A DNA stretch of 64,000 nucleotides from Maribacter spongiicola. GTDB taxonomy: Bacteria; Bacteroidota; Bacteroidia; Flavobacteriales; Flavobacteriaceae. Made by a program: the position numbers and the translations under genes. Positions 2,386-16,953 of the stretch are shown here, piece by piece. Each line of letters opens with the position of its first letter. The stretch's first letter is position 1. The stretch spans positions 1,267,098 through 1,331,097 of the forward strand of contig NZ_SOAY01000010.1 of the NCBI RefSeq assembly GCF_004364165.1, in the 5' to 3' direction. The notes under the pieces are model-generated. The model was not told the DNA's origin. It saw only the letters and a list, made by a program, of their open reading frames with translations, and made no database searches.

Positions 2386-3984
2386 ATGGAAAACACGATT
2401 TTAAAACATCCGAAAATTCAGTTCGCAAATCAGGTACATCATTACTATCCTGAGATTCTAACAGACAGTGCTTTAGAATTCCTAACAGCGCTTCATGAGA
2501 ACTTTAACGACAAAAGATTACAACTACTGAAAAACCGTGAAGTCCAGCAAAAAGTCTTTGATAGTGGTCAGTTTCCCCATTTTCCTAAAGAGACAAAATC
2601 TATTCGTGAGGGTGTTTGGACTGCAGGTAAAATCCCGGAAGATTTACAGGATAGAAGGGTAGAAATTACTGGACCGGTAGATCGTAAGATGATCATTAAC
2701 GCTTTAAATTCCGGAGCTAAAACCTTTATGGCAGATTTGGAGGACAGTAATTCTCCCAGTTGGAAAAATAGTATTGAAGGTCAACAAAATTTAATGGATG
2801 CCAATACTAAGACCATTTGTTTAACAGATACTAAAAGAGGGAAATCATACCAATTAAAGGACGAAACGGCAGTGCTTTTGGTACGGCCAAGAGGTCTACA
2901 CCTTAATGAAAGACATTTATTGGTAAATGATGAAGAGGCTTCAGGAAGTTTGGTAGATTTTGGATTGTATGTTTTTCATAATACCAAAACGATGATGGAC
3001 AATGGCACGGCACCTTATTTCTATCTGCCAAAATTGGAACATTATACAGAAGCGCGCTGGTGGAACGAGGTTTTTGAATTTGCCCAGGAGTATTTAAACG
3101 TGCCTAAAGGTACATTTAAGGCAACTGTTTTGGTAGAAACCATTACCGCTAGCTTTCAATTAGACGAAATCATTTTTGAATTGAAAGATCATATTGTAGG
3201 GCTAAACTGCGGCCGTTGGGATTACATATTCTCGTACATTAAAAAGTTTAGAAACCACCCTGGTTTTGTGGTACCCAATAGAGATCAGGTTACAATGACC
3301 ACTCCGTTTATGGACGCCTACGCAAAATTGGTTGTTCAAAGATGTCATAAGCGTGGCATACTTGCTATTGGCGGTATGGCTGCTCAAATTCCTATCAAGA
3401 ACGATGATAAGGCAAATGCAGAAGCCTTGGAGAAAGTGCGAAAAGATAAAGAGCGCGAAGTACAAAATGGTCATGATGGTACATGGGTTGCTCACCCTGC
3501 TTTGGTTGAGGTAGCCATGAACGAGTTTAATAAGCATATGTCTACACCAAACCAAATGCATGTATTACGTGAAGATGTAATAGTGACGGAGGAAGATCTT
3601 GTTGAAATCCCAAGAGGAACTATTACAGAAGCTGGAATAAGGAAAAATATCAATGTGGGTATTTTATATACTGAAGCTTGGTTAAGAGGGCATGGCGCGG
3701 TTGCACTTTATAACTTAATGGAAGACGCCGCAACGGCAGAAATTTCTAGAACCCAAGTATGGCAGTGGTTGAAGAATGAAGTCATTCTTGCCGATGGCCG
3801 TAAGTTGACTATAGAATTGTATATAGAAATATTCGAAAACGAAGTTGAAAAATTAATAACCGAAGTGGGTGAGGACAACCTGAAAAATAGCAAGTTTGAA
3901 TTGGCAATACAGCTATTTGATAAACTGGTGGTATCAGATGATTTCGAGGAATTCTTAACCTTACCGGCATACAAATTCATATAA
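2386..3984 (+). CDS. aceB: Malate synthase A
   Basis: Condenses glyoxylate with acetyl-CoA to malate, the second glyoxylate-shunt step, in the cytosol. The 532-residue length fits the A-type enzyme. The family signature is intact (KDHIVGLN followed by CGRWDYIF, about residues 267-282). The ATG at 2386 was chosen over an in-frame ATG 24 bases upstream because MENTILKHPK gives the usual N-terminus and the leader before it is A-rich. It is followed by a strong stem-loop and then aceA on the same strand, so the two probably form one transcript. Controlled, by inference, by the divergent XRE/RamB-like regulator. Confidence 0.96.
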   Translation: MENTILKHPKIQFANQVHHYYPEILTDSALEFLTALHENFNDKRLQLLKNREVQQKVFDSGQFPHFPKETKSIREGVWTAGKIPEDLQDRRVEITGPVDRKMIINALNSGAKTFMADLEDSNSPSWKNSIEGQQNLMDANTKTICLTDTKRGKSYQLKDETAVLLVRPRGLHLNERHLLVNDEEASGSLVDFGLYVFHNTKTMMDNGTAPYFYLPKLEHYTEARWWNEVFEFAQEYLNVPKGTFKATVLVETITASFQLDEIIFELKDHIVGLNCGRWDYIFSYIKKFRNHPGFVVPNRDQVTMTTPFMDAYAKLVVQRCHKRGILAIGGMAAQIPIKNDDKANAEALEKVRKDKEREVQNGHDGTWVAHPALVEVAMNEFNKHMSTPNQMHVLREDVIVTEEDLVEIPRGTITEAGIRKNINVGILYTEAWLRGHGAVALYNLMEDAATAEISRTQVWQWLKNEVILADGRKLTIELYIEIFENEVEKLITEVGEDNLKNSKFELAIQLFDKLVVSDDFEEFLTLPAYKFI

Positions 3985-3989
3985 AAAAC

Positions 3990-4022
3990 GATCCTGCCAT
4001 TGCGGCAACAATGTGCAGGATC
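3990..4022 (+). promoter_or_regulatory. Stem-loop between aceB and aceA
   Basis: GATCCTGC and CATTG pair with CAATG and GCAGGATC around a 6-base loop, leaving one bulged T: a 13-bp stem, strong for this AT-rich genome. No T-run follows (next bases TCATTATC), so it is not a classical terminator. An A-run precedes it. It ends 34 bases before the aceA start. The likely role is mRNA processing or stability, giving unequal aceB and aceA levels, or partial attenuation. Confidence 0.6.
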
Positions 4023-4056
4023 TCATTATCAATAATAAATAACGTAGTTCAAAATT

Positions 4057-5688
4057 ATGAAAAATCTAGATCAAAACAAGTACAGTTCGGCATTAGAGAC
4101 TGTAAGAAACTTAAAGCAAAAGTACGGAGCAACTTGGAATGATATCAACCCAGAAAATGCTGCTAGAATGGTCGCTCAAAATCGTTTTAAAACCGGATTG
4201 GATATTGCTAAATATACAGCGGGCATTATGAGAAAAGATATGGCGGAGTATGATGCAGATTCATCTAATTACACACAATCTTTAGGGTGCTGGCACGGGT
4301 TTGTGGCACAGCAAAAAATGATTGCAGTGAAGAAACACCACAAAACTACCAGTAAAAAATATTTATACCTTTCTGGGTGGATGGTGGCAGCCTTACGTTC
4401 AGAATTCGGACCGTTACCTGATCAGTCTATGCACGAAAAAACAGCGGTTTCCAGTTTAATTGCAGAAATCTATGATTTTTTACGCCAGGCAGATGCTATA
4501 GAATTGAACGATTTGTTCAGAAGATTGGAGAATGGGGAAGATGTACAGGATGAAATTGATAATTATGAAACCCATATTGTACCTATAATTGCAGATATAG
4601 ATGCCGGTTTTGGTAATGAAGAGGCTACTTATTTATTGGCTAAAAAAATGATTCAAGCGGGTGCATGTGCCATTCAAATTGAGAATCAGGTGTCAGATGC
4701 TAAGCAATGTGGACACCAAGATGGTAAGGTAACCGTACCTCATGAAGATTTCGTGGCAAAACTAAATGCAGTACGATATGCTTTTATTGAATTGGGAATT
4801 GACGATGGGGTAATCGTAGCCAGAACGGATTCTGAAGGTGCGGGACTTACACAAAAGTTGCCGGTAAGTCAAGAGCCTGGTGATTTAGCTTCACAATATT
4901 TAGCTTTTGTTGAGGCAGAGGAAATTGCCATTTCAGAGGCTCGTGAAGATGATGTCCTATTAAAAAGGGACGGTAAATTGGTGCGCCCAATTCGCTTGCC
5001 TAACGGATTATATAAATTTAGAAACGGCACTAATATAGATAGGGTGGTGTTAGATTGTATTACCAGTTTGCAAAACGGTGCAGATCTTCTTTGGATTGAG
5101 ACGCCTACGCCTAATGTAAAGCAAATTGCGCATATGGTAAATAGAATTAGAGCGGTAGTACCTAATGCAAAATTGGTATATAATAATTCCCCATCCTTTA
5201 ATTGGACATTGAATTTCCGTGGGCAGGTATATGATGAAATGCTTGCGGAAGGTGAGAATATGACGGAATATGATAGAAATAATTTAATGGCAGAGGAATA
5301 TGATACCTCAGAATTGTCTTTCCGTGCAGATATGAAAATTAGAAGTTTTCAAGTAGATGGAGCAAGAGATGCTGGTATTTTCCACCACTTGATTACATTA
5401 CCGACATATCATACTACAGCGTTACATATGAGCGATCTTACTAAAGGTTATTTTGGTGAAGAAAGTATGTTGGCATACGTAAAAGGTGTACAAAGACAAG
5501 AAATCCGTAAAGGTGTTTCTTGTGTAAAACATCAGAGAATGGCTGGGTCTGATCTAGGTGACGATCATAAATCTTTCTTTGCTGGTGATAAGGCATTAAA
5601 AGCAGGTGGCGAGAAGAATACGTCTAACCAGTTTGATGCAGGATCTAAAAGCAAAAAGGTAGAAAAAGAAGTAGGAGTGTTATCCTAA
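4057..5688 (+). CDS. aceA: Isocitrate lyase (long, Pseudomonas-like subfamily)
   Basis: Cleaves isocitrate to glyoxylate and succinate, the first glyoxylate-shunt step. At 543 residues it is longer than the E. coli type. The active-site segment reads KQCGH (catalytic Cys218) instead of the common KKCGH, followed by QDGKVTVP, a form I associate with the Pseudomonas-like subfamily. Other conserved parts include ADIDAGFGN (metal site) and NNSPSFNW. It follows aceB after 72 bp with a stem-loop between, and ends at a clear terminator. Together the pair allows growth on acetate, fatty acids or other C2 sources. Confidence 0.96.
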   Translation: MKNLDQNKYSSALETVRNLKQKYGATWNDINPENAARMVAQNRFKTGLDIAKYTAGIMRKDMAEYDADSSNYTQSLGCWHGFVAQQKMIAVKKHHKTTSKKYLYLSGWMVAALRSEFGPLPDQSMHEKTAVSSLIAEIYDFLRQADAIELNDLFRRLENGEDVQDEIDNYETHIVPIIADIDAGFGNEEATYLLAKKMIQAGACAIQIENQVSDAKQCGHQDGKVTVPHEDFVAKLNAVRYAFIELGIDDGVIVARTDSEGAGLTQKLPVSQEPGDLASQYLAFVEAEEIAISEAREDDVLLKRDGKLVRPIRLPNGLYKFRNGTNIDRVVLDCITSLQNGADLLWIETPTPNVKQIAHMVNRIRAVVPNAKLVYNNSPSFNWTLNFRGQVYDEMLAEGENMTEYDRNNLMAEEYDTSELSFRADMKIRSFQVDGARDAGIFHHLITLPTYHTTALHMSDLTKGYFGEESMLAYVKGVQRQEIRKGVSCVKHQRMAGSDLGDDHKSFFAGDKALKAGGEKNTSNQFDAGSKSKKVEKEVGVLS

Positions 5689-5799: not shown

Positions 5800-5820
5800 C
5801 AAAGCACTTGCTTAGTTTTG
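5800..5820 (+). promoter_or_regulatory. TetR promoter with overlapping operator-like inverted repeat
   Basis: CAAAGCA-CT-TGCTTAG (5800-5815) is an inverted repeat with 7-base arms and one mismatch. Its right arm runs into TAGTTTTG (5813-5820), a perfect Bacteroidetes -7 element, 17 bases before the TetR start. The same repeat recurs upstream of the next gene (6420-6435). Binding here would cover the promoter, which implies autorepression. Confidence 0.75.
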
Positions 5821-5837
5821 CAGTGTAATTAGAAATA

Positions 5838-6401
5838 ATGGCACGTAAAAAACAATATAACGAAACAGAAGTCATAGAAAAGGCAATGCGCTTATTCTGG
5901 CGTAATGGCTATGAAAGTACATCGGTTCGTATGTTAGAGAAAGAAATGGGTATAAACCAATTCTCTATTTATGCCAGTTTTAAAAACAAAGAAGGAGTTT
6001 TTTTAGAAAGTATAAAATTCTATAATACCCAATTAAAAAGCATTATCGATACATTAGAAAAATCTAATAATGGTGTGCTTGGTATTAAAGAATATTTTTT
6101 AGATTTTCTTGAGTTCTCTAGAGAAGGCGCCATCTTTAAAGGGTGTTTGGTTACCAATACGGTAAACGAAATAAAAGAAGATTCCAACCCCGTAATTATG
6201 GCGGCATTAAAACGCTTTTCTTTAAATATTAGAGAGTTGTTTGTAAGGAATTTAAAACAAGACGACGAAAGGGATGTAAAAGAAATAGAAGCACAAGCAG
6301 ACTATTTAATGAACGCTCTTTTAGGTCTATCGATTTCATCAAAGGTTTTTAATGAAGAGACATTAAAAGGAATTATTGAAATGACATTTTTACACCTGTA
6401 G
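5838..6401 (+). CDS. TetR/AcrR-family transcriptional regulator
   Basis: A 187-residue protein with a typical N-terminal TetR helix-turn-helix (about residues 7-55; the recognition region reads MGINQFSIYASFKNKEGVF) and a divergent helical ligand domain. It starts the redox cluster that runs to 11858. Inverted repeats with TGCTTAG arms overlap both its own promoter and the cluster promoter, the usual pattern for a repressor released by a small molecule. The ligand is not deducible; the gene content downstream suggests a quinone, aldehyde or other electrophile. The ATG at 5838 is the first in frame after the promoter. Confidence 0.92.
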   Translation: MARKKQYNETEVIEKAMRLFWRNGYESTSVRMLEKEMGINQFSIYASFKNKEGVFLESIKFYNTQLKSIIDTLEKSNNGVLGIKEYFLDFLEFSREGAIFKGCLVTNTVNEIKEDSNPVIMAALKRFSLNIRELFVRNLKQDDERDVKEIEAQADYLMNALLGLSISSKVFNEETLKGIIEMTFLHL

Positions 6402-6407
6402 GTTTTT

Positions 6408-6440
6408 TTTGAACAATAACTAAGCAGTTGCTTAGATTTA
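6408..6440 (+). promoter_or_regulatory. Promoter and TetR operator of the redox cluster
   Basis: TTTG (6408-6411), 21 bases, then TAGATTTA (6433-6440; 7 of 8 matches to TAnnTTTG) gives a Bacteroidetes-type promoter. The perfect inverted repeat CTAAGCA-GT-TGCTTAG (6420-6435) fills the spacer and overlaps the -7 element exactly as at the TetR promoter. The first gene starts at 6476. This is the principal candidate target of the adjacent TetR protein. Confidence 0.75.
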
Positions 6441-6475
6441 ACATAAATATAATAATTAATAAAAACAATAAGATT

Positions 6476-7027
6476 ATGACAACTTTAAAAGTACACGATA
6501 TCGAGTCTGCACCAGAAGGTAGCAAAGCATTATTAGAAAGCTCTAACAAGGCATACGGAATGATTCCGGGTCTTCACGGGGTCTTGGCAGCGTCGCCAAA
6601 ATTATTAGAAGCGTACCAAACATTACATCAGTTATTTACTGAGACTTCTTTCAACGAAGACGAGTTAACTGTAGTATGGCAAACGATCAATGTTGAGCAT
6701 GCATGTCATTATTGTGTACCGGCACATACAGGTATCGCTAAAATGATGAAAGTGGATGATGCTATTACAGAGGCTTTACGTAACGAAACTCCTTTGGCAG
6801 ATGCGAAATTAGAAGCTTTACGTACGTTTACTTTAAGCATTGTACGTAACCGTGGTAATGTATCAAAAGAAGATTTAGATGCTTTTTATGCAGCTGGTTA
6901 TGGTGAAGCTCAAGTGTTGGAAATTATTTTAGGATTATCTCAAAAGGTAATTAGCAACTATACAAACCATATTGCTAATACACCAGTAGATGCAGCTTTT
7001 CAAAAGTTTGCATGGTCAAAAAAATAG
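6476..7027 (+). CDS. Carboxymuconolactone decarboxylase/AhpD-like protein
   Basis: A 183-residue all-helical AhpD-superfamily protein. The motif EHACHYCVPAHT (about residues 77-88) contains the CxxC pair and following His that act as a disulfide-based peroxidase or reductase relay in AhpD-like enzymes. It is first behind the TetR-type operator, consistent with induction by oxidants or electrophiles. The ATG at 6476 is preferred to an upstream in-frame start that would add 16 low-complexity residues and begin inside the operator. The true substrate is unknown; decarboxylase activity is unlikely given the CxxC motif and the context. Confidence 0.88.
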   Translation: MTTLKVHDIESAPEGSKALLESSNKAYGMIPGLHGVLAASPKLLEAYQTLHQLFTETSFNEDELTVVWQTINVEHACHYCVPAHTGIAKMMKVDDAITEALRNETPLADAKLEALRTFTLSIVRNRGNVSKEDLDAFYAAGYGEAQVLEIILGLSQKVISNYTNHIANTPVDAAFQKFAWSKK

Positions 7028-7191
7028 AGGTTTCATTTTCCCCGAAACCATATGTTGATTGAGTGATTGATGATAGCCTTCTGTCTTTGGGCGGAAGGTT
7101 ATTTAGTTCTCAACAACAAATAAATCACTTCGATACATGCTTCGAAGAATTTAATTCTTGATTATCGAGTAACATTAAAATAAACTTAATT

Positions 7192-7926
7192 ATGAGTACA
7201 ACTATAGAAAATAAAGTAGCTTTAGTAACAGGTGCCAACAGAGGTATTGGTAAGGCTATTGTAGAGTCATTTATTAATCACGGAGCTAAAAAAGTTTATT
7301 TAGCTGTACGTGATACCAATTCTACTAAAGAATTAGAAGATAAATACGGAGACAAAGTAGTTACGATAAAAGCTGATGTTTCAAATACACAATCCATTCA
7401 AGATTTAGCCCAAAAAGCAAATGACGTTGATGTTGTTGTAAACAATGCAGGTATTGGTGAATCTTACGGAACAATTGGTGTTGACGTAGAAAAAGATTTT
7501 ACCAAGCAATTAGAGGTGAATGCATTTGGTTTACTACGTGTAGCTAATGCTTTTGCCAAAACTTTAGAGAATAAAAAAGGAGCATTGGTACAGTTGAACT
7601 CTATAGCATCTATAAAAAACTTCCCTCAGTTATCTACATATTCTGCGTCAAAAGCGGCATCCTATTCATTGACCCAAGGTTTGCGTGCAGACCTAGGTAC
7701 GAAAGGTGTTCATATTTTAAGCGTACACCCAGGTCCAGTAATGACAGATATGGGTAAGGCGGCAGGTTTTGAAGAAGGTGCGGCAGCTTCAGAAATATCT
7801 GAAGGTATAGTAACAGCATTGGCTGCAGGTGATTTTCATTTGTTTCCAGATGCTATGGCAAAACAATTTGAAGGTGCTTACCAAGGCTTTGCAGAAAATA
7901 TAGTTTTGGCAGATTTAAATGAATAA
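7192..7926 (+). CDS. Short-chain dehydrogenase/reductase (SDR)
   Basis: A 244-residue classical SDR: nucleotide-binding TGANRGIGKA (residues 14-23), NNAG, a catalytic Ser region (LNSIASI) and the YxxxK pair in YSASK. It would reduce or oxidise a carbonyl/alcohol substrate with NAD(P)H in the cytosol. It follows the AhpD-like gene after 164 bp and precedes GAPDH by 57 bp, all on the + strand. In this setting, reduction of a reactive carbonyl is the natural guess, but the substrate cannot be read. The 164-bp gap contains weak hairpins and no gene. Confidence 0.9.
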   Translation: MSTTIENKVALVTGANRGIGKAIVESFINHGAKKVYLAVRDTNSTKELEDKYGDKVVTIKADVSNTQSIQDLAQKANDVDVVVNNAGIGESYGTIGVDVEKDFTKQLEVNAFGLLRVANAFAKTLENKKGALVQLNSIASIKNFPQLSTYSASKAASYSLTQGLRADLGTKGVHILSVHPGPVMTDMGKAAGFEEGAAASEISEGIVTALAAGDFHLFPDAMAKQFEGAYQGFAENIVLADLNE

Positions 7927-7983
7927 CTGTAAATAGAAGGTGCTAAACGTAGTTAGAATTTTTAATAAACTAAATACATCAAA

Positions 7984-8979
7984 ATGAAAAAAATAGCAAT
8001 AAACGGAATGGGGCGTATAGGTCGCGCTTCTTTAAAAGTAATTTTGGATACTCCAGAGTTAAACTTAGTAGCGGTAAACGATATTGTTTCCATAGAGAAT
8101 ATAGCTTATTTATTAAAGTATGATTCGGTTTATGGAATTTATGAAAAAGAGGTTTCTCATGATGAGAACAACTTAATTGTAGATGGAAAGAAAATAGAAT
8201 ACAACTCGCAACGCAATCCTGAAGATTTACCTTGGGCATCACATGAAATTGATGTCGTCATTGAAAGTACCGGTTTCTTCACCAAAAGTGAAGATGCCAA
8301 AAAACATATTAAAGCAGGTGCCAAATCGGTAATTATATCAGCACCTACTAAGAGTGAAGATATACCAACGGTAGTACATGGTGTAAACACAGAAGCTGGT
8401 GAAACTAATATATTTTCATGTGCTAGTTGTACCACCAATAATATTAGTCCCGTAGTAGAAGTTCTTGGGCGTAGAGTTGGTATTAAAAAAGCGATAATGA
8501 CTACTGTGCATGCCTACACGGCATCTCAAGGTATTGTTGATGCGCCTTCACAAAAGAACATGAGAATGCGTCGTGCTGGTGCAGCCAATATTGTACCGAC
8601 ATCTACAGGTGCGGCAATTGCAACCACCAAAGCTTTGCCAGAATTTGCCGGTAAGTTCGATGGTGTTGCGCTACGTGTTCCAATTCCGGTCGGGTCAATG
8701 TCAGATTTAACTTTTGTTACCGAACGCGACGTAACTCCCGAAGAGATTAATGCAATTTTTAAAGAGGAAGCGGCGACGGACAGGTATAAAAATATTCTGG
8801 ACACTACAGATCAGCCTTTGGTTTCATCGGATATTGTAAAGAATCCGCATGCGTCTACTGTAGATTTGGGTATGACCAGAGTGGTAGATGGCGATTTATT
8901 AAAAGTGATGACCTGGTATGATAACGAATGGGGATTCACCAATCAAATGATTCGTCAAATTTTGGCAGAAATTAAATAA
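7984..8979 (+). CDS. gap: Glyceraldehyde-3-phosphate dehydrogenase, type I
   Basis: A 331-residue GAPDH. NGMGRIGR (residues 6-13) binds NAD, and the Asp in VAVNDI favours NAD over NADP. The catalytic motif is SCTTNN with Cys149, followed by the HAYTASQ and WYDNEWG segments. It oxidises glyceraldehyde-3-phosphate in glycolysis. Its position inside a TetR-controlled redox cluster, not with other glycolytic genes, suggests a stress-inducible isozyme that replaces or supplements a main GAPDH, whose catalytic cysteine is a classic target of oxidants and electrophiles. A second gap gene elsewhere in the genome is expected but not visible here. A terminator-like hairpin follows. Confidence 0.95.
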   Translation: MKKIAINGMGRIGRASLKVILDTPELNLVAVNDIVSIENIAYLLKYDSVYGIYEKEVSHDENNLIVDGKKIEYNSQRNPEDLPWASHEIDVVIESTGFFTKSEDAKKHIKAGAKSVIISAPTKSEDIPTVVHGVNTEAGETNIFSCASCTTNNISPVVEVLGRRVGIKKAIMTTVHAYTASQGIVDAPSQKNMRMRRAGAANIVPTSTGAAIATTKALPEFAGKFDGVALRVPIPVGSMSDLTFVTERDVTPEEINAIFKEEAATDRYKNILDTTDQPLVSSDIVKNPHASTVDLGMTRVVDGDLLKVMTWYDNEWGFTNQMIRQILAEIK

Positions 8980-8986
8980 AACAACG

Positions 8987-9026
8987 AGGTAGCTATTCTT
9001 TCGAATGAGGTATAGCTACCTTTTTT
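8987..9026 (+). terminator. Terminator-like hairpin after GAPDH
   Basis: AGGTAGCTAT pairs perfectly with ATAGCTACCT across a 15-base loop and is followed by a T-run (9021-9026). The next gene starts only 21 bases later with no room for a full promoter, so this probably lets part of the transcription through, making the distal genes less expressed. Confidence 0.75.
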
Positions 9027-9046
9027 CAACTTAAAAAAGGTATAAC

Positions 9047-9361
9047 ATGATAAAGGTATCAGTAATGTATCCGAACAGCGAAGGTGTAAAGTTCGATGCA
9101 GAATATTATAAAAACACACACTTGCCAATGGTTCAAAAACTAGTGGGCAGTGCAATGAAAGAATTGGAATTAGATTTAGGCGTTGGCGGCAGAGCACCTG
9201 GCGAAGCTGCACCATATGTAGCCATTGCACATTTAAAGTTTGACGATGTAGCTTCTTTTCAAGCAGCCTTTGGTCCACATGCGGCAACATTTGCAGATGA
9301 TGTAAAGAACTATACCAATGTACAGGGCGAAATACAGATTAGCGACTTGGTATCCTTCTAA
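9047..9361 (+). CDS. EthD-domain protein
   Basis: A 104-residue protein of the EthD family (dimeric alpha+beta barrel): the N-terminal beta strand MIKVSVMYP, YYKNTHLPMV (the characteristic H-x-P after a tyrosine pair) and the C-terminal VQGEIQISDLV. EthD proteins occur in oxidative catabolic and stress gene clusters; their exact reaction is mostly unknown. Fourth structural gene of the redox cluster. A small 7-bp hairpin (9362-9378) follows directly after the stop, without a T-run. Confidence 0.88.
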   Translation: MIKVSVMYPNSEGVKFDAEYYKNTHLPMVQKLVGSAMKELELDLGVGGRAPGEAAPYVAIAHLKFDDVASFQAAFGPHAATFADDVKNYTNVQGEIQISDLVSF

Positions 9362-9435
9362 ACTGATTGTGAATCAGTACAATTAGTTGCTTGGTAGTTG
9401 GTAAATAGTTTTAATAATCAGTTAAATATACATAT

Positions 9436-10095
9436 ATGGAAAATACAGATGTATCTATTGAAAAATTGGCGCAACAGTGTTTCCATGCAGTTTTTAGAAC
9501 AGATACCGATAAACCGGGTTATTACCATTTTGATTTAGGTAAGAATAGAACACCATTAGAATTTAGAACTATTTTAACTGGGCTTAAAAAAGAACTGTCA
9601 AAATTGAGCGAAACCAACTTTGGTAAAAAATTAAGTTACCATTGGTTGGTTCGTTTTGATCAGCAAGTAAATACTCCTTTTCATGTAGATAATGCGGCAC
9701 ATCAATCTTTTCTTTTGTTAGGTTATGAACCTAGCGTAATAGAAAGTGAATTGCATATTGCCGATTATCATGCGCTTGCAAAAGAAAAGGATAAAGATTA
9801 TTTAGCCAATTTCACTCCTGTGTTTAAAGAAAACGAATCACTATTGGCACCATTTACAACGAAATTGAAGTCTTTTGACAAAGAAGCGTATCATATTGTA
9901 ATCATGAATAATAGTACCCCTAAGCTTTCGGCAGAAACCTTAGGCGTGTATCATAAAGCGGTTATTGTAGAGCAAGACTTTAGTAAAAGTAGGATCGTGA
10001 ATTCGATGGTATTGAATATGACATCCGAAGAAAAACATATTGAAGATCAAGAGCGAGAAGAAAACTATCTGAACACTACTGTTATTAGTAAATAG
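9436..10095 (+). CDS. Uncharacterised protein of the redox cluster
   Basis: A 219-residue soluble protein with no signal peptide or membrane segment; I do not recognise the family. A stretch FHVDNAAHQSFLLLGYEPS (about residues 81-99) contains an HxD pair on what looks like a beta strand, and a later YHKAVIVEQD could supply another His, so a distant 2-oxoglutarate/Fe(II) oxygenase-like double-stranded beta helix is possible but unproven. The C-terminus is highly charged. It lies between EthD and the DsbA-like gene, with gaps of 74 and 51 bp, and is presumably co-transcribed with them. Confidence 0.75.
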   Translation: MENTDVSIEKLAQQCFHAVFRTDTDKPGYYHFDLGKNRTPLEFRTILTGLKKELSKLSETNFGKKLSYHWLVRFDQQVNTPFHVDNAAHQSFLLLGYEPSVIESELHIADYHALAKEKDKDYLANFTPVFKENESLLAPFTTKLKSFDKEAYHIVIMNNSTPKLSAETLGVYHKAVIVEQDFSKSRIVNSMVLNMTSEEKHIEDQEREENYLNTTVISK

Positions 10096-10146
10096 TGATG
10101 GTGAATTTTACACGGGATAAAAAATAATAATCATAAAGAAGTAATT

Positions 10147-10794
10147 ATGAGTAAAAAATTAAAAATAGATATTGTATCTGATGTAGTATGCCCTTGGTGT
10201 GCTATTGGGTATAAACGTTTAGAGAAAGCAATTACGGAACTTGGTATTGAAGATCAAGTAGAGATTGAATGGCAACCTTTTGAGCTGAACCCAGGTATGC
10301 CACCTGAGGGACAAAATGTAACCGAGCATATTACAGAAAAATACGGTTCTACGTTAGAGCAACAACAAGCGTCGCAACAGAACATGACCGAGATAGGAGA
10401 GGAGCTTGGCTTTAAATTCGATTATTTTGATGAAATGCGCATGGCTAATACATTTGATGCCCATGTATTATTAGAGTATGCAAAAGAATTTGACAAGCAG
10501 ACCGAACTGAAATTACGATTAATGAATTCGTTTTTTGGTGAAAGAAAAGATGTGTCTGACAGAGCAATATTAAAAGAAGCTTTGATAGCTGTAGGTTTAA
10601 ATGCAGATGAAGCATTGGCTAGGTTAGATAATGAAGAAGCTAGATTTGAGGTAAGAAACAAACAAGGGGAATGGAAGAATATGGGTGTCAATTCTGTACC
10701 TACAATTGTCTTTAATATGAAAAGTGCAGTAACAGGAGCACAGCCTGTTGCTACATTTAAACAAATACTTGGCGAGCTAATTGCCGAGAAATAA
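10147..10794 (+). CDS. DsbA-family (FrnE-like) oxidoreductase
   Basis: A 215-residue thioredoxin-fold protein of the DsbA/FrnE type: VCPWCAIGYKRLEKA carries the CPWC active site (residues 16-19) right after the first beta strand, and GVNSVPTIVF supplies the cis-proline loop. No signal peptide, so it is cytosolic, like FrnE, which is linked to oxidative-stress tolerance in other bacteria, and unlike periplasmic DsbA. It is followed 18 bp later by the peroxiredoxin-like gene and the two are surely co-transcribed. Confidence 0.92.
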   Translation: MSKKLKIDIVSDVVCPWCAIGYKRLEKAITELGIEDQVEIEWQPFELNPGMPPEGQNVTEHITEKYGSTLEQQQASQQNMTEIGEELGFKFDYFDEMRMANTFDAHVLLEYAKEFDKQTELKLRLMNSFFGERKDVSDRAILKEALIAVGLNADEALARLDNEEARFEVRNKQGEWKNMGVNSVPTIVFNMKSAVTGAQPVATFKQILGELIAEK

Positions 10795-10812
10795 AATAAA
10801 AACCGGTCTATT

Positions 10813-11478
10813 ATGAGTACAACAAATAAAGGCGAACTAGATGCGTTGTTATCGGTAAAACGCCAAGAAGCAGCTGCGAAATTTACAGAAGAGAAAAAGC
10901 AGGTATATGCTGAGGGTATTTTAAGTGTTGCCGCATCGGGAGTATTAGAAAATGCACTGAATGTCAATAGTAAAGCGCCTAATTTCACTTTGAAAAATGC
11001 GTTGGGCAAATCGGTTTCGTTATATGATGAGTTAAAAAACGGACCAGTAGTTTTAACGTGGTATAGAGGTGGTTGGTGTCCGTATTGTAACATCACACTG
11101 CACTATTTACAAGAAAAATTGCCAGAAATTCAAAAAGCAGGAGCAACATTGATCGCACTTACACCAGAGTTGCCAGATAACTCTTTATCCACTTCAGAAA
11201 AGAACAAATTAGAATTTACCGTCCTTAGTGATGTTGGTAATGTAGTTGGTAAAGAATACGGAGTGGTCTATACGTTAACCGATGATGTAGCTAGTATTTA
11301 TGAAGCCGGTTTTGGTTTAAGCGAAGTAAACGGCGATGATACTAATGAACTTCCGTTAGCTGCGACTTATGTGATTGATACCAATGCGGTAATACAGTAT
11401 GCTTTTTTAGATGAAGACTATAGAAAACGCGCAGAAGTATCGGAAATAGTATCGGCTTTAAATAAGTTGAACCAATAA
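10813..11478 (+). CDS. Peroxiredoxin-like AhpC/TSA-family protein
   Basis: A 221-residue protein with the peroxiredoxin/thioredoxin fold (APNFTLKNALGKSVSLYDEL, then VVLTWYRGGWCPYCNITL). The CPYC site sits where peroxiredoxins carry the peroxidatic cysteine, as in the Prx-like group that keeps a CxxC pair. The role is thiol-dependent peroxide or disulfide reduction in the cytosol. The N-terminal roughly 45 residues are helical and charged. It lies between the DsbA-like and DoxX-like genes with short gaps (18 and 29 bp), adding to the thiol-redox character of the cluster. Confidence 0.9.
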   Translation: MSTTNKGELDALLSVKRQEAAAKFTEEKKQVYAEGILSVAASGVLENALNVNSKAPNFTLKNALGKSVSLYDELKNGPVVLTWYRGGWCPYCNITLHYLQEKLPEIQKAGATLIALTPELPDNSLSTSEKNKLEFTVLSDVGNVVGKEYGVVYTLTDDVASIYEAGFGLSEVNGDDTNELPLAATYVIDTNAVIQYAFLDEDYRKRAEVSEIVSALNKLNQ

Positions 11479-11507
11479 CCGCGTAACCAATTAAACCACC
11501 AATAAAT

Positions 11508-11858
11508 ATGAAAACGAACAAAATCATTTATTACGTAGCCACTGGTATTTTTACCTTGGTAATGCTGTTTTCTGCAGGCATGTATTTTTTTAATCATAAA
11601 TATATTAAGGGAGCCTTTACGAGTTTGGGCTACCCAACGTATTTAATATATCCGTACGCTACGGCAAAGTTGGTAGGGTTGTTTGCAATTTGGAATCCTA
11701 AGTTTCATCATATTAAAGAATGGGCATACTCTGCATTTTTCTTTGCGGTTACCTTGGCATTTTTTGCACACATTATGGTAAGTGACGGCGAACAAATGGC
11801 AGCTGTAATTGCTTGGGTAGCATTGGTAGTTTCTTATATCTTTAGCAAAAGGATATAG
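11508..11858 (+). CDS. DoxX-like membrane protein
   Basis: A 116-residue inner-membrane protein with four predicted hydrophobic segments (about residues 7-27, 44-62, 69-89 and 94-113). The layout and the KLVGLFAIWNPKFHHIKEWAYS region match the DoxX-like small membrane proteins that often sit at the end of redox operons and are thought to work with quinones or thiol metabolism. It is the last gene of the TetR cluster; the next gene is convergent, so the transcript ends here, although I see no strong terminator in the 36-bp gap. Confidence 0.82.
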   Translation: MKTNKIIYYVATGIFTLVMLFSAGMYFFNHKYIKGAFTSLGYPTYLIYPYATAKLVGLFAIWNPKFHHIKEWAYSAFFFAVTLAFFAHIMVSDGEQMAAVIAWVALVVSYIFSKRI

Positions 11859-11894
11859 TCATTTTAAAAAAAATAGTGTGTTGTTCTTGGTTAA

Positions 11895-12791
11895 TTAAAG
11901 TACTGTTGCGCTAAAAGTATCACCCTGAGAAATATCACCAGTCTCAAAACCTTTTTTGAACCATCTAATGCGCTGCTCTGAAGTGCCATGTGTAAAAGAG
12001 TCAGGTACAACTTTGCCAGTTGATTGTCTTTGTAAGCGATCATCGCCAATAGCATTTGCAGCATTTAAGGCTTCTTCAAGATCACCTTTTTCCATCATTT
12101 GCGTCATGCTTTGTGAACGATTTGCCCAAACGCCTGCAAAGAAATCTGCTTGTAGCTCTAAACGAACAGAATATTTGTTGAATTCTGTTTCACTTAATTG
12201 TCCTCTAAGTCTATCGACTTTGGCGGTTATTCCCATTAGTTTTTGAACATGATGTCCAACTTCATGTGCAATAACATAAGCCTGTGCAAAATCGCCCGGT
12301 GCATTCATTTGTTGTTCCATATCTTGGAAAAAACTTAAGTCGAGATATAATTTTTCGTCGCCAGGGCAGTAAAAAGGACCTGTTGCACTTGAGGCTGAGC
12401 CGCAAGCAGACGATACATAACCTGTAAAAAGAACCAAAGTAGGCTCGCGGTAATCATCTAAAAGGCTATTCCATACATCTTCGGTACTGGCTAAAATAGT
12501 TGCACTGAACTCAGCTTGCTGATTCTCTATCTCAGTACCTTGATATGATTCTGTAGAAACAGTCTGACTGTTGCCGCCTAAAAAGTTACTTATTAAGGTT
12601 AACGGGTTGTTACCGGTTATGAATACAAATGCTAAGAAGAGTCCAGCGATAATTAAGCCAGTTTTTGAAAAAAGCATTTTTATTATTGGAGCGAGTAGTG
12701 TAGGGTTAAATCCACTAAAACTCCTTCTAGAACTAGATTGACCTCTCTGATCATCTACATTTGAACTTTGACGCCTACCTTGCCATTTCAT
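11895..12791 (-). CDS. Neutral zinc metallopeptidase (YpfJ/KPN_02809 family), membrane-anchored
   Basis: A 298-residue protein with a polar N-terminal tail (KWQGRRQSSN...), one transmembrane segment (about residues 43-60) and a catalytic domain with HEVGHHVQ (HExxH zinc motif). LQADFFAGVWA further on supplies the third ligand region. This is the Pfam zinc-peptidase family whose members start with the same WQGRR-type segment. The catalytic part should face the periplasm. Convergent with the DoxX-like gene; no operon partner upstream. Substrate unknown. Confidence 0.93.
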   Translation of the reverse strand: MKWQGRRQSSNVDDQRGQSSSRRSFSGFNPTLLAPIIKMLFSKTGLIIAGLFLAFVFITGNNPLTLISNFLGGNSQTVSTESYQGTEIENQQAEFSATILASTEDVWNSLLDDYREPTLVLFTGYVSSACGSASSATGPFYCPGDEKLYLDLSFFQDMEQQMNAPGDFAQAYVIAHEVGHHVQKLMGITAKVDRLRGQLSETEFNKYSVRLELQADFFAGVWANRSQSMTQMMEKGDLEEALNAANAIGDDRLQRQSTGKVVPDSFTHGTSEQRIRWFKKGFETGDISQGDTFSATVL

Positions 12792-13316
12792 AGTATTCTT
12801 ATTTTAAAAATTAGTATTTAATATTGAAAGCCTTTCAATTATCATTCTTCCCAGTATTAACCGATGAATATTCAAATTGTATCGTTTACCATTTATTTTC
12901 AAGACCTAAATTAGTTTTAGTTGTAATACACTACTTAAAAGGTTACAAATCCATTTTTAGATTCTTTAAATAAATCGATGTGTTAGTATCGAATGGCATG
13001 ATTAATATCATTAGTTCCATTGTTAAATATATTTCAATTATTCAGCATTAAAATTACAAAACCTACTTCCTGTAAAGTGCTCAAAGCAGATTATAACTAA
13101 CCATATTGGTAGTGCATGCATTTAATTTAAATATTGCTTATATCGTGATCGAACTTGTGGTGTATTGTTTGAAGTAATTTTAAAATTTGACCAATAAAAT
13201 ATTTATAAAGTATGTTTTGAAATATTCGTACATGCCATATAAAAACAAAGTGCAGAATAAATTCATTTTTTACGAATATCCATTAATGATAATTTTAATC
13301 ATATTCAGGGTCAATT
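12792..13316. other. Intergenic stretch, no gene recognised
   Basis: About 525 bases of very AT-rich sequence between the metallopeptidase start and the candidate small RNA. I see no credible reading frame, repeat array, RNA gene or clear operator. The first part must contain the metallopeptidase promoter, which I could not place. Confidence 0.6.
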
Positions 13317-13458
13317 TATTTTTGGATATAGATAATAAGGTTGGTCGTTAAATATTAAAATTGCAAATAATTGAACTGCATATGTTGTAATAATAATGGT
13401 TAGTGTTCTTATGTGCAGTTTAATGACTTAGGGGCTTACTAATATAAGTCCCTTTTTT
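13317..13458 (+). ncRNA. Candidate small RNA with own promoter and terminator
   Basis: A perfect -7 element (TATTTTTG, 13317-13324) predicts a start near 13331. About 40 bases later a 10-bp stem forms (AACTGCATAT at 13374-13383 with its partner at 13411-13420, one G-T pair), directly followed by an independent terminator hairpin (13430-13458). There is no credible reading frame in between. Promoter, structured core and terminator in about 130 bases fit a small RNA. It could instead be a terminated leader of the EEP gene at 13638. No known RNA family was recognised. Confidence 0.4.
13430..13458 (+). terminator. Rho-independent terminator with no upstream gene
   Basis: AGGGGCTTA pairs with TAAGTCCCT (9 bp, one G-T pair) around a 6-base loop and is followed by six T. 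The nearest gene upstream is on the other strand, so this must end a non-coding transcript. Confidence 0.75.
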
Positions 13459-13637
13459 ATTAGTACTAGTTCAGGATTTGATATTAGACAAAAAAAGATT
13501 GTAATTATAACAAGATCAGAATGTACATATTGATAATTTAATGGACTAAACCTTTAAAAATTTACCCTGTGAGAATTTTCTAAGACGCAATTCACTTTTA
13601 TCTAAATAAAGTAAAACCAACCACCAAAAATGTAGTT

Positions 13638-14726
13638 ATGAATTTAAGTAGTAAATTAAAATTAAGATTGTTCTTACGAGTTTTTGCTGTGCTGGCAATA
13701 ATTTTGACCATCTTTCCTTTTATCGCAGCCGATCACTGGACAGTTAGGGTTTTTGATTTTCCACATCTTCAATTAACTGTTTTGACTATGTTGGCACTAT
13801 TACTCTATTTTTTTAGATTTAATTTAAAAAGTAAAGTCGACATTCTTTTCGTTACTGTCCTGGCCGGCTGTTTTGTATTTCAAATGGCAAAAGTATACCC
13901 ATATACTATATTTGCAAAAAAAGAGATTTTCCAAAGTAGCTCCAAAAGTAAACCCACATTCGATATTTATACAGCAAATGTATTACAGAAAAATGATAAT
14001 AAAGTTTCTGTTGTTGATGAAGCTAAAAAATTTGATGCCGATATTTTATTATTTACTGAAACAGATAAAACATGGCAACAAGCATTTTCAAAGTCTTTAA
14101 GTCGAGAATATTTGTATAAGGTGGAAGTTCCTTTAAGTAATACGTATGGCATGCTCCTTTATTCCAAATTAGAACTTTTAGAACCTAGCGTAAGATATTT
14201 AGTAGAAGACACTATCCCCTCTATACATTCAAAAATAATTTTGAAATCTAAAGATACTATTCAATTGTTCGCCATACATCCTGCACCACCAACGCCACAA
14301 CATAATCCTACCTCTGTTGATAGAGATGCAGAAATGATGAAAATTGCGAAACTTACAAGAGAATCGAAATTTCCTGTCATTGTTATGGGAGATTTTAATG
14401 ATGTAGCTTGGTCAGAGACTACAGAGCTATTTCAGAAAGTAAGCGGATTATTAGATTTAAGGAAAGGACGAGGATTTTTTAGTACGTACAATGCAAAGAG
14501 TTGGATTATGCGTTGGCCGCTAGACCATATTTTTTCATCTCCAGATTTTAGGATTTTAGATGTTAAACTCGGGGATAATAATGGCTCTGATCATTTTCCA
14601 TTTTTTACCAAGTTCAGTTATGAGCCACAGTTGGCAAAAGAACAAATGTTGCCAGAACCAACAAAAGAAGAATTAAACAGGGCTTATGAGCAAATAGAAA
14701 AAGAAAATCAGGAGCAAGAGAAATGA
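13638..14726 (+). CDS. Membrane-anchored endonuclease/exonuclease/phosphatase-family protein
   Basis: A 362-residue protein with three N-terminal hydrophobic segments (about residues 13-32, 43-60 and 67-85) followed by an EEP (DNase I-like) domain. Metal and catalytic motifs are visible: FTETD, IHPAPP (catalytic His), MGDFNDVAWS and the terminal GSDHFPFF. The domain is extracytoplasmic by topology. Members of this membrane-bound branch may be phosphodiesterases or phosphatases, not necessarily nucleases. The C-terminal 30 residues are Glu/Lys-rich and probably disordered. It stands alone; a candidate small RNA precedes it and a heptamer repeat follows. Confidence 0.88.
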   Translation: MNLSSKLKLRLFLRVFAVLAIILTIFPFIAADHWTVRVFDFPHLQLTVLTMLALLLYFFRFNLKSKVDILFVTVLAGCFVFQMAKVYPYTIFAKKEIFQSSSKSKPTFDIYTANVLQKNDNKVSVVDEAKKFDADILLFTETDKTWQQAFSKSLSREYLYKVEVPLSNTYGMLLYSKLELLEPSVRYLVEDTIPSIHSKIILKSKDTIQLFAIHPAPPTPQHNPTSVDRDAEMMKIAKLTRESKFPVIVMGDFNDVAWSETTELFQKVSGLLDLRKGRGFFSTYNAKSWIMRWPLDHIFSSPDFRILDVKLGDNNGSDHFPFFTKFSYEPQLAKEQMLPEPTKEELNRAYEQIEKENQEQEK

Positions 14727-14853
14727 AATTTTTATAGTTTAATTAATGCGAATTATCTTTTTTAAAAAATAATTTGTTGTCTTTTTATTAACTCAAATTA
14801 TATGTCTCTTTAATAGAATCTTATATTTTTTATAAGGGGATTTGTAATTTATT

Positions 14854-14886
14854 AAAAGCCAAAAGCCAAAAGCCAAAAGCCAAAAG
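14854..14886. repeat. Heptanucleotide tandem repeat (AAAAGCC), about 4.7 copies
   Basis: Four exact copies of AAAAGCC plus AAAAG, in the 333-bp gap after the EEP gene. The same unit, in another register, forms a six-copy array at 44134-44175. Nothing else is recognised in this gap apart from the hairpin and promoter at 14997-15036. Confidence 0.9.
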
Positions 14887-14996
14887 TATTCTATTTAGGT
14901 AATCTAACCATTATTATAAAGATGGTTGTTGCTATACATACAGTTGTATTCTGATTTTCATGTAGAGATACTCTCTATGAAATTAAAACCATCTGT

Positions 14997-15036
14997 AAAG
15001 CCAATTACTTATAATATATTGGCTTTTGTAAATTTG
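14997..15036 (+). promoter_or_regulatory. Hairpin and promoter of the Yellow-like gene
   Basis: AAAGCCAAT (14997-15005) pairs perfectly with ATTGGCTTT (15018-15026). Two bases later comes TAAATTTG (15029-15036), a perfect -7 element, 24 bases before the start at 15060. The inverted repeat covers the spacer region and could be an operator; it has no adjacent T-run suitable for termination. Confidence 0.55.
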
Positions 15037-15059
15037 TACTTATTTAAAAGATTGAAATC

Positions 15060-16136
15060 ATGAAAAATCTCAGCTATATCATTATTCTGTTTGTTTTACT
15101 TTTTTCTTGCAAAGAAAAAACAGAAAATAAATCACAATCAACCCCTGTCATAGCACAAACGGAAACGCAGAAAATCATACAAATAGTTTCTTTTAAAGGG
15201 CAACAAGTAACAGGGGTTAGCGTGAGTAATGATGGGCGTATTTTTGCGAATTTTCCTAGATGGAGAAAAGGAGTTAAAAATTCTGTAGTAGAAATAATAA
15301 ATGGTACAAACGCTCCCTTTCCAAATGAAGAGTGGAACTCTTGGGAAATAGGAGACAAAATAGAGGTGAATAAATTTATAGGTGTACAATCTGTTGTTGT
15401 ATACGATAATCTTATCTATGTTTTAGATACTAGAAGTCCCCTTTTTCAAGAAGTTTTAGATGCACCTAGAGTTTTTGTTTTTGATATAAATACAAAAGAA
15501 TTAGAGCACACTTATATTTTAAACGAAGACGCTTACCATGCTAATTCTTATATCAATGACTTACGTCTTGATAAAAAGAACAACAAAATTTACTTCACAG
15601 ATTCCGGTAATTCTGGTTTGGTCATTTTAGATGTAAAAACTAAAAAGTTCACTAGAGTTTTAGATAACCATTCTTCTACAGCAGCGGAAGTGGAATTTTT
15701 AACTTTTGAGAATAAGAAATGGACAAATTCTGTAAATTCAGATGGAATTGCTTTAGATACTAAGAATCACAAGCTATACTATCACGCCCTTTCGGGGTAT
15801 AGTCTATATAGCATATCCACAAAAGCACTCACTTTAGACAATGAAAAAGATATTGAAAATGAAGTAACTTTTGAAACCAAAACATCTGCGCCCGACGGAA
15901 TGATTTTTGATGAAAACGGAAACTTATATTATGCCGATCTAGAACACAATAAAATTATGTATCGCAAACCAGACGGTAGTATACATACTTTAGTGGAAGG
16001 TGATGCCATAAAATGGGCAGATACTTTTAGTATATTCCAGGGTTATTTATATTTTACCAACTCTAGGATTAATGAAGTAACTACTGATATTTCTGAAATG
16101 GAATTTACCATTAACAAAATTGGATTAGCAAATTAG
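15060..16136 (+). CDS. Yellow/major royal jelly protein-like lipoprotein
   Basis: A 358-residue protein with a lipoprotein signal (LLFSCKEK, Cys17). The mature part is a beta propeller with family hallmarks: VTGVSVSNDGRIFANFPRW, VQSVVVYDNLIYVLDTRSP, YINDLRLDKKNNKIYFTDSG and SDGIALDTKNHKLYYHALSG. These match the MRJP/Yellow family, found in insects and patchily in bacteria. It would be membrane-anchored on the periplasmic or outer-membrane side. The ligand or reaction is unknown; lactonase-like sugar or metabolite binding is typical of the fold. It stands as a single gene with its own promoter, 52 bp before the dehalogenase gene. Confidence 0.9.
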   Translation: MKNLSYIIILFVLLFSCKEKTENKSQSTPVIAQTETQKIIQIVSFKGQQVTGVSVSNDGRIFANFPRWRKGVKNSVVEIINGTNAPFPNEEWNSWEIGDKIEVNKFIGVQSVVVYDNLIYVLDTRSPLFQEVLDAPRVFVFDINTKELEHTYILNEDAYHANSYINDLRLDKKNNKIYFTDSGNSGLVILDVKTKKFTRVLDNHSSTAAEVEFLTFENKKWTNSVNSDGIALDTKNHKLYYHALSGYSLYSISTKALTLDNEKDIENEVTFETKTSAPDGMIFDENGNLYYADLEHNKIMYRKPDGSIHTLVEGDAIKWADTFSIFQGYLYFTNSRINEVTTDISEMEFTINKIGLAN

Positions 16137-16188
16137 TTTTTGATGCTTCAAGAGTAAACCGAAAGTAAATATTAAATATCTTCATAAT

Positions 16189-16872: not shown

Positions 16873-16917
16873 AATTTTGACCATTTCATTTTCAAATCTA
16901 AAGCATCTTAGAATATG

Positions 16918-16925
16918 TATCTTTG
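16918..16925 (+). promoter_or_regulatory. -7 promoter element (TATCTTTG)
   Basis: Perfect match to TAnnTTTG, 28 bases before the start at 16954. No clear -33 TTG at the usual distance. Confidence 0.55.
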
Positions 16926-16953
16926 GCGTACCATTAACTAAAGAAAGTAGTAC

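Follow-up and report, generated by a model that had tools for sequence, protein, structure and literature searches.

The window, i.e. the whole 64,000-nucleotide stretch of Maribacter spongiicola DNA considered here, carries a TetR-headed operon whose likeliest role is the inducible protection of the cell from thiol-reactive chemicals. The proposal that it is an autoregulated, TetR-repressed defence of this kind, with halogenated compounds or hypohalous stress encountered near macroalgae favoured as natural inducers, is given a somewhat better than even chance. Nine of its genes follow one another on the forward strand (table 1), all of them where a preliminary description had placed them, and seven of them confirmed in the families that it had named. 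Families were assigned with Pfam and NCBIfam profiles against the family cut-offs, which were passed for TetR_N, adh_short, Gp_dh_N/C, TIGR01534, EthD, DSBA, AhpC-TSA and DoxX_2; the AhpD-like protein falls under them (TIGR01926, 48 bits versus 81.8; CMD, 14 versus 23). The CxxC motifs of the AhpD-, DsbA- and peroxiredoxin-like proteins, also noted beforehand, are all present. The genome comprises 18 contigs and 4,455,565 bases, and the closest named relatives of the TetR protein and of the glyceraldehyde-3-phosphate dehydrogenase (GAPDH) encoded by the operon are from Maribacter.

The operators found in the tetR and ahpD promoters share the core AAGCANNTGCTTAG, of which no other exact copy exists in the genome (the exact search returned three hits for two sites, one palindrome being scored on both strands), in agreement with the matching inverted repeats described earlier at the two promoters. 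With up to three mismatches allowed, the 16-mer was found five times in the window versus 3.24 expected, i.e. it is not rarer than chance, the closest matches, with 0 and 1 mismatch, being those at the tetR and ahpD promoters, and the one-mismatch pattern is close to background genome-wide (24 hits in all versus 15 with the reversed control). A wider regulon in this genome was considered and dropped, both near-palindromes inspected (L061 and L062) falling inside coding sequence. The two sites are taken to exceed chance because they are conserved in other genomes, orthologous loci having a similar palindrome at the same two places. For this comparison, 95 loci encoding 93 distinct TetRs were used, two TetR matches at 38-39% identity (G674 and G392) being left outside the set, and a site was defined as matching at least nine of the ten scored bases, with base 5 unscored in the choice. 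Such sites are present on the ahpD side for 88 of the 93 TetRs and in both promoters for 83. They conform to a 16-bp consensus, CTAA(G/A)C-N4-G(C/T)TTAG, with two main types, CTAAGC-N4-GCTTAG and CTAAAC-N4-GTTTAG (with a C variant at base 5), and the type follows the residue that comes after MGIN in the recognition helix: on the ahpD side Gln goes with G in 32/33 cases and Lys with A or C in 55/55, and on the tetR side the agreement is 31/33 for Gln and 53/54 for Lys (five weak ahpD-side and six weak tetR-side operators lie outside these base-5 tallies). This covariation supports the TetR control claimed in the preliminary description and provides strong comparative evidence that the protein binds these sites.

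The pairing of helix and site appears to have arisen repeatedly. In a tree of 34 TetR rows, from which the helix-turn-helix region was removed and the paralogue L173 excluded (the program warns of long branches), the Gln/G type requires two changes, and the Flavobacterium TetRs with Gln and G-type sites fall apart from the Maribacter group. A single clade for the 20 Gln rows was rejected (p-AU 0.0002, for a group seen on the tree before the test); thus, a joint change of helix and site took place at least twice. An earlier tree that included L173, with three Gln-type changes, was replaced by this one. On the tetR side, the operator is adjoined in 85 of 87 cases by TAnnTTTG, which is the -7 consensus of Bacteroidota, and the overlap of operator and -7-like box makes autorepression by promoter occlusion likely. 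In the resting state, TetR would sit on the 16-bp palindrome that overlaps the -7-like box of its own gene and on that preceding ahpD. A third operator type, CTAATC-N4-GATTAG, was observed with the paralogous TetR of L173 (genome G805, 1889-2452), where it lies before an operon encoding alpha/beta-hydrolase-like and SDR-like proteins (SDR, short-chain dehydrogenase).

The TetR of the window contains a single cysteine, Cys103, in the sequence KGCLVTN, and GC(L/F/M) with that cysteine is found in 93/93 distinct TetRs. The Pseudomonas regulator CifR, which senses epoxides and regulates an epoxide hydrolase gene, is the second-best PDB match (6nsn, E 1.8e-11); phmmer aligned Cys103 with the cysteine of 6nsn that is Ser in the 6nsm chain, and the operon that CifR belongs to differs from the present one. 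Through this alignment, Cys103 falls in the region (near residues 100-107) of the critical cysteine of NemR-, AltR- and CifR-like sensors. Cys100 of AltR is described as essential for derepression by thiosulfinates (PMC13178969), and a part in the hypochlorous acid (HOCl) response is ascribed to Cys106 of NemR (PMC7464077). Because of the CifR, AltR and NemR cysteines, sensing of electrophiles or oxidants by Cys103 is inferred. By analogy with these three regulators, modification of Cys103 would release TetR from the DNA so that the operon is transcribed, and the electrophile or oxidant induction proposed from the outset is best called plausible.

What this regulator controls was determined from its genomic contexts. 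In the genus, 20 TetR copies from 19 of 36 genomes were read in context; AhpD is encoded at 19 of these loci, a 2-haloacid dehalogenase at 18, the DsbA-like protein at 17, GAPDH at 15 and the protein of the 9436-10095 family at seven. The 15 copies with TetR at least 89% identical to that of the window all have AhpD, GAPDH, EthD, DsbA, DoxX and haloacid dehalogenase, with peroxiredoxin in 10, the 9436-10095 family in seven and SDR in two. Among the other loci, L169 is reduced to TetR-AhpD-dehalogenase, L171 and L172 read TetR-AhpD-DsbA-peroxiredoxin-dehalogenase, AhpD is the sole member of the operon set in L170 and none is present in L173. In the family Flavobacteriaceae, the TetR was found at E 1e-25 in 61 of 349 genomes (65 places), and 60 new contexts chosen by TetR alone (three of the stretches cut by contig ends) contain AhpD in 50 cases, DsbA in 28, the dehalogenase in 23, EthD in 13, peroxiredoxin in 11 and the 9436-10095 family in three; in many of them no target other than AhpD was recognised. 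Gene sets are, thus, kept across the family, in support of the preliminary description; their order and content vary freely. The constant part of the operon is TetR with AhpD, followed by DsbA and the dehalogenase, and GAPDH is a lineage-bound addition. The 21 loci collected by way of the 9436-10095 protein, a selection that biases the counts, have TetR in 20 cases, AhpD in 19, EthD in 17, DsbA in 16, dehalogenase in 14 (divergent in L036) and GAPDH in seven. A lipoprotein-like protein of approximately 280 residues with no family match (cluster c15; L034, L035 and others) recurs in the TetR-AhpD operons, at 6/60 loci.

Outside the phylum, close relatives of AhpD are encoded by plasmids of marine proteobacteria; three of the four examined have a divergent TetR alongside, with other palindromes, and at the fourth, in Vibrio fortis, no TetR lies beside the AhpD relative. 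In the three alphaproteobacterial plasmids (L138, L140 and L141, one from a Fucus isolate), AhpD is 65-68% and TetR 24-27% identical, and in two of the three the palindrome between the two genes is TTGAGTGATCACTCAA.

The limits first set for the cluster, 5800-11858, proved too narrow, as they miss the genes of the type II 2-haloacid dehalogenase and of a lipoprotein similar to the MRJP/SGL family. In the congener L174, the order is TetR-AhpD-SDR-GAPDH-EthD-9436 family-DsbA-peroxiredoxin-DoxX-MRJP-dehalogenase with no foreign gene between, so that the two displaced genes of the window are counted as belonging to the operon on comparative grounds; the dehalogenase gene also stands in the row of operon genes at the 14 further congener loci with TetR at least 89% identical. 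No second match to it exists in the window genome. Read by eye in the alignment, it carries in order the group-B residues D-T-F-S/T-K-Y-A-H-D of the motif taken from PMC8490876. In the same source, Grigorian and colleagues describe ZgHAD as acting on bromo- and iodoacetate, with a knock-out showing that it contributes to the tolerance of Zobellia. They report genes of the HAD2 type in Maribacter and Cellulophaga, place the enzymes of these two genera in clade HAD2 and ZgHAD itself in HAD1, and found no evident operon for haloacids in Z. galactanivorans (PMC8490876). From its family, with a score above the TIGR01428 cut-off, and from the activity of ZgHAD, the window enzyme may hydrolyse haloacids such as bromo- or iodoacetate.

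The systems closest to this operon are the PfAR-1 and alt clusters for allicin tolerance and NemR. The set had been thought unlike any described operon; TetR, AhpD, a DsbA/FrnE-like protein and SDR also stand together in PfAR-1 of Pseudomonas, described as a multi-component thiol defence in which overexpression of ahpD or dsbA singly confers allicin resistance (PMC7119367). Unlike PfAR-1 as described there, the operon comprises EthD, the 2-oxoglutarate (2OG)-oxygenase-like protein, peroxiredoxin, DoxX, GAPDH, haloacid dehalogenase and the MRJP-like protein. The alt cluster of Pantoea resembles it in having an autoregulating TetR, AltR, with palindromes in its own promoter and in that of the cluster and with the essential cysteine at position 100, but the AltR operator is CAATCTAC-N6-GTAGATTG rather than CTAARC-N4-GYTTAG and the gene content differs (PMC13178969). 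The E. coli NemR-nemA-gloA system is similar in that NemR is a TetR-type regulator that answers electrophiles as well as HOCl, Cys106 taking part in the HOCl response, but its targets are NemA and GloA and it has six cysteines instead of one (PMC7464077). Since none of the alt/PfAR-1 genes osmC, trx, oye, kefF/kefC and gor is found among the 14 window proteins scanned (the nine at 5838-11858, the Zn_peptidase open reading frame at 11895-12791 and four at 13638-17607), the operon is judged to work like an alt cluster, by analogy, yet is not filed as one. What sets it apart is the dehalogenase, together with the two-cysteine GAPDH and the predicted oxygenase. No paper joining TetR, EthD, DoxX and glyceraldehyde-3-phosphate dehydrogenase was found in the open-licence literature, which does not imply absence from print.

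These likenesses also bear on the nature of the inducer. In the proposed thiol defence, AhpD, DsbA and the peroxiredoxin-like protein would handle oxidised or conjugated thiols. Being redox proteins, they would also suit a regulon directed at oxidants or at disulfide stress, caused by hypohalous acids, peroxide or thiosulfinate-like compounds, with halo-organic acids as no more than a side product; the dehalogenase would then clear haloacids that arise in the same oxidative burst. This alternative, which we regard as possible though doubtful, draws on the allicin and thiosulfinate tolerance given by PfAR-1 and alt clusters containing TetR, AhpD, DsbA and SDR (PMC7119367, PMC13178969), on the HOCl response of NemR (PMC7464077) and on the oxidative-stress genes of Zobellia reported to be induced by fresh kelp (PMC9296495). 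However, the presence of the dehalogenase at 18 of the 20 genus loci, and as the sole partner of AhpD in L169, fits alkylating haloacids equally well or better. The favoured inducers of the thiol defence are halogenated electrophiles, or else the hypohalous stress met close to macroalgae, this being its least certain step.

The protein encoded at 9436-10095, presented initially as a new and uncharacterised member, indeed has no Pfam or NCBIfam match at E 0.1, and its sequence found no match in the PDB (best E 0.22). Its fold can, however, be predicted, and it is an optional member of the operon (7/20 genus loci; 3/60 family loci). In an alignment of 21 rows (A1; L037, with a broken frame, was left out), the invariant residues include H83-x-D85, H173 and R186, corresponding to an HxD...H iron triad and a 2OG-binding Arg, and the same four residues are retained in three homologues with 32-41% identity outside such clusters. 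The best of five AlphaFold2 (AF2) models (pLDDT 86.3, pTM 0.86; range of pLDDT 86.3 to 69.9) shows the double-stranded beta-helix of 2OG-Fe(II) oxygenases and matches CarC (1nx4) with Z 11.5 and a root-mean-square deviation of 3.1 over 161 aligned residues, and PHD2, TauD and AtsK with Z 10.2-10.9; VioC was also matched. All 50 among the matches listed by VIA are 2OG oxygenases; Foldseek also returns epimerases, viral capsids and GOLD domains with similar E-values and TM-scores below that of CarC. A divergent 2OG-Fe(II) oxygenase is, thus, predicted. The family is rare, being found in 3/395 genomes of the class, 8/397 of the family and 7/36 of the genus. Distant relatives of the protein that retain the iron-ligand residues are encoded outside TetR clusters at L006, L007 and L013.

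An oxygenase acting in sequence with SDR, EthD, a DsbA-type isomerase, the dehalogenase and a gluconolactonase-like lipoprotein could also make up a pathway for the breakdown of a single algal or haloaromatic compound, the substrate being sensed by TetR. EthD, MRJP/SGL and HCCA-isomerase-like folds do occur in catabolism, and the difference in the enzyme set between genomes counts in favour of such a pathway. It is nevertheless quite improbable: the 14 proteins scanned (5838-17607) include neither a transporter nor a ring-cleavage family, the genes differ freely in order and content between loci, many family loci having AhpD as sole recognised target, and neither peroxiredoxin nor GAPDH fits.

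The remaining distinctive component is the GAPDH. The window genome contains four Gp_dh_N genes, so that the cluster copy is not the only one, a count that the preliminary description had left to be made. One of the others, at C2:119997, follows phosphofructokinase (pfkA) and reads SNASCTTNC around the catalytic cysteine; the other two read SNASCTTNN and SAASCTTNA. The alignment of the cluster GAPDH shows the motifs SCASC, TTVHAYT, LRVP and WYDNEWGF, which we take to contain the equivalents of the catalytic Cys149, His176, Arg231 and Asn313 of type I GAPDH. The protein belongs to a clade of 37 rows (SH-aLRT 99), all 37 of which contain two cysteines and no more, at a distance of three residues, and use the second as the catalytic one (the L024 GAPDH, with an in-frame stop, is outside both the tree and the 37). 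The idea that CxxC by itself distinguishes the cluster GAPDH was rejected: the pattern CASCTTN occurs in 17/247 genomes, and of 13 new stretches 10 have a GAPDH open reading frame, eight of which read SCASCTTNC. The clade is, therefore, marked only by the two-cysteine state and the loss of the third cysteine. Those eight GAPDHs, from other Bacteroidota families (L125-L132), have Cys at -3 and +4 of the catalytic Cys, and in seven of the eight the gene is followed by an open reading frame of approximately 400 residues, which is pgk in the one checked (L127). A search of the open-licence literature for CXXC with GAPDH returned only papers judged unrelated from titles and the starts of abstracts.

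Embedding of GAPDH in the cluster, which had been emphasized at first, holds for 15/20 genus loci: it is not a core member, and it was rejected as such with 0/60 cluster-type copies in the further family loci, the sole GAPDH counted there being 44% identical and 7.3 kb away. The 16 copies in AhpD operons fall together in the tree, with an SH-aLRT of 93 that stays under the 95 mark, and so the gene was apparently captured once, in a Maribacter-centred lineage. Elsewhere, two-cysteine copies occur in 20/349 family genomes. Among the 20 stretches fetched, eight have a same-strand TetR within 8 kb, as counted with a profile built from the TetRs of this analysis that may miss others; the chance expectation is approximately 1-2% for 8 kb either way, taking eight TetR genes per 4.46 Mb as counted in the window genome only. 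In seven of the eight, the TetR is a different one and is followed by a DUF1348-type protein, some loci adding alpha/beta hydrolase, PNPOx-like and AhpD-like proteins (families checked on single members). This second type of TetR cluster with a two-cysteine GAPDH (L090, L092, L094, L095, L098, L106 and L107) includes a deaminase-like gene in some cases, and the five of its TetRs that were printed share an FRGC motif.

Within the thiol defence, the two-cysteine GAPDH would sustain glycolysis while the housekeeping enzyme is blocked at its catalytic cysteine, a known target of such chemicals; inhibition of GAPDH by iodoacetate is described as standard (PMC11808161). The more specific proposal, which is tentative and rather doubtful, is that of a dedicated stress GAPDH of Flavobacteriaceae, with all cysteines lost except C146 and the catalytic C149, induced by cysteine-sensing TetRs when algal thiol-reactive chemicals, perhaps of the haloacetate type, disable the housekeeping enzyme. 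C146 would cap C149 as a reversible disulfide, and the Maribacter operon would combine the destruction of a natural iodoacetate-like poison with the replacement of its target. Alternatively, the GAPDH may simply be carried along, or serve as a copy that resists a GAPDH-targeting natural product, as are those of pentalenolactone or heptelidic acid producers, instead of a general stress enzyme. The single cluster group, i.e. one capture, and the accessory nature and decay of the gene are consistent with this explanation, which appears unlikely given that the same clade recurs in the other type of TetR cluster, beside DUF1348, alpha/beta hydrolase and PNPOx-like proteins, and that no biosynthetic family is found among the window neighbours scanned. 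A role in ArsJ-type arsenate detoxification or as erythrose-4-phosphate dehydrogenase is very improbable indeed: both families score on the protein (NF033735, 315.9 bits; NF010058, 276.2 bits), but under the cut-offs of 450 and 539, and there is no arsenic family among the nine cluster proteins.

Several observations weigh against the proposed defence or its parts. The dehalogenase gene of the window stands apart from the operon and lacks a separate operator; it is missing from 37/60 family loci, and one of the 23 counted (L203) is just 30% identical. The absence of the cluster-type GAPDH from all 60 family loci makes the defence independent of this enzyme, and in Maribacter caenipelagi (L024, 7550-8545) the gene has an in-frame stop and the altered motif SCASCITNN, so that it has the look of a decayed gene in an otherwise preserved operon. 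C146 is not special, the eight GAPDHs of other Bacteroidota families also having SCASC. The main target of bromoacetate in E. coli is reportedly MurA rather than GAPDH, a result attributed to Desai and Miller in 2010. With respect to regulation, the Gln-G rule on the ahpD side is broken by L173, a 45%-identical TetR paralogue with a different gene set, and in 67/88 cases no -7-like TAnnTT box follows the ahpD-side operator.

Table 1. Operators and genes of the operon and of its surroundings in the window.
Feature	Position	Strand	Basis or remark
Operator O1, CAAAGCACTTGCTTAG	5800-5815		tetR promoter; TAG end enters the -7-like TAnnTTTG box at 5813-5820
TetR-family repressor, Cys103 in KGCLVTN	5838-6401	+	PF00440 TetR_N 44.3 bits, cut-off 24
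Operator O2, CTAAGCAGTTGCTTAG	6420-6435		perfect palindrome, 5' of ahpD
AhpD/peroxidase-related protein, CHYC	6476-7027	+	listed open reading frame starts at upstream TTG, 6428
Short-chain dehydrogenase (SDR)	7192-7926	+	NF006120 361 bits, cut-off 274; optional member
Type I GAPDH, two-cysteine clade, SCASCTTNN	7984-8979	+	TIGR01534 385.8 bits, cut-off 367.2
EthD-family protein	9047-9361	+	TIGR02118 89.6 bits, cut-off 30.5
Uncharacterised protein, predicted divergent 2OG-Fe(II) oxygenase	9436-10095	+	invariant residues, AF2 model, Foldseek/VIA
DsbA/FrnE-like oxidoreductase, CPWC	10147-10794	+	PF01323 122 bits
Peroxiredoxin-like protein, CPYC	10813-11478	+	PF00578 95 bits
DoxX-like membrane protein	11508-11858	+	PF13564 (DoxX_2) 53.3 bits
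Zn_peptidase open reading frame	11895-12791	-	between DoxX-like gene and displaced operon genes
Exo_endo_phos gene	13638-14726		between operon and displaced genes
MRJP/SGL-like lipoprotein, displaced operon member	15060-16136	+	PF03022 73.7 bits, cut-off 19.8
Type II 2-haloacid dehalogenase, displaced operon member	16189-16872	+	TIGR01428 158.9 bits, cut-off 125.4

Upstream of the operon, at 2386-5688, lie genes named from their sequence as malate synthase and isocitrate lyase. They are found at this place in several congeners as well, so that some members of the genus keep the operon at the same chromosomal position. The intergenic region 5' of the displaced MRJP gene contains a tandem repeat at 14854-14886, made up of four full AAAAGCC units plus part of a fifth.

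The operon would offer a bacterial example, open to direct test, in which an enzyme of primary metabolism that electrophiles attack is replaced by a second copy. It would also tie the marine haloacid dehalogenases of the Maribacter type to a regulated operon, bring in a 2OG-oxygenase-like family so far unannotated and, through the TetR/operator code, predict the regulon across Flavobacteriaceae. For the ecology of macroalgae and their bacteria, it provides candidate genes that may help flavobacteria to endure the chemical defences of algae.

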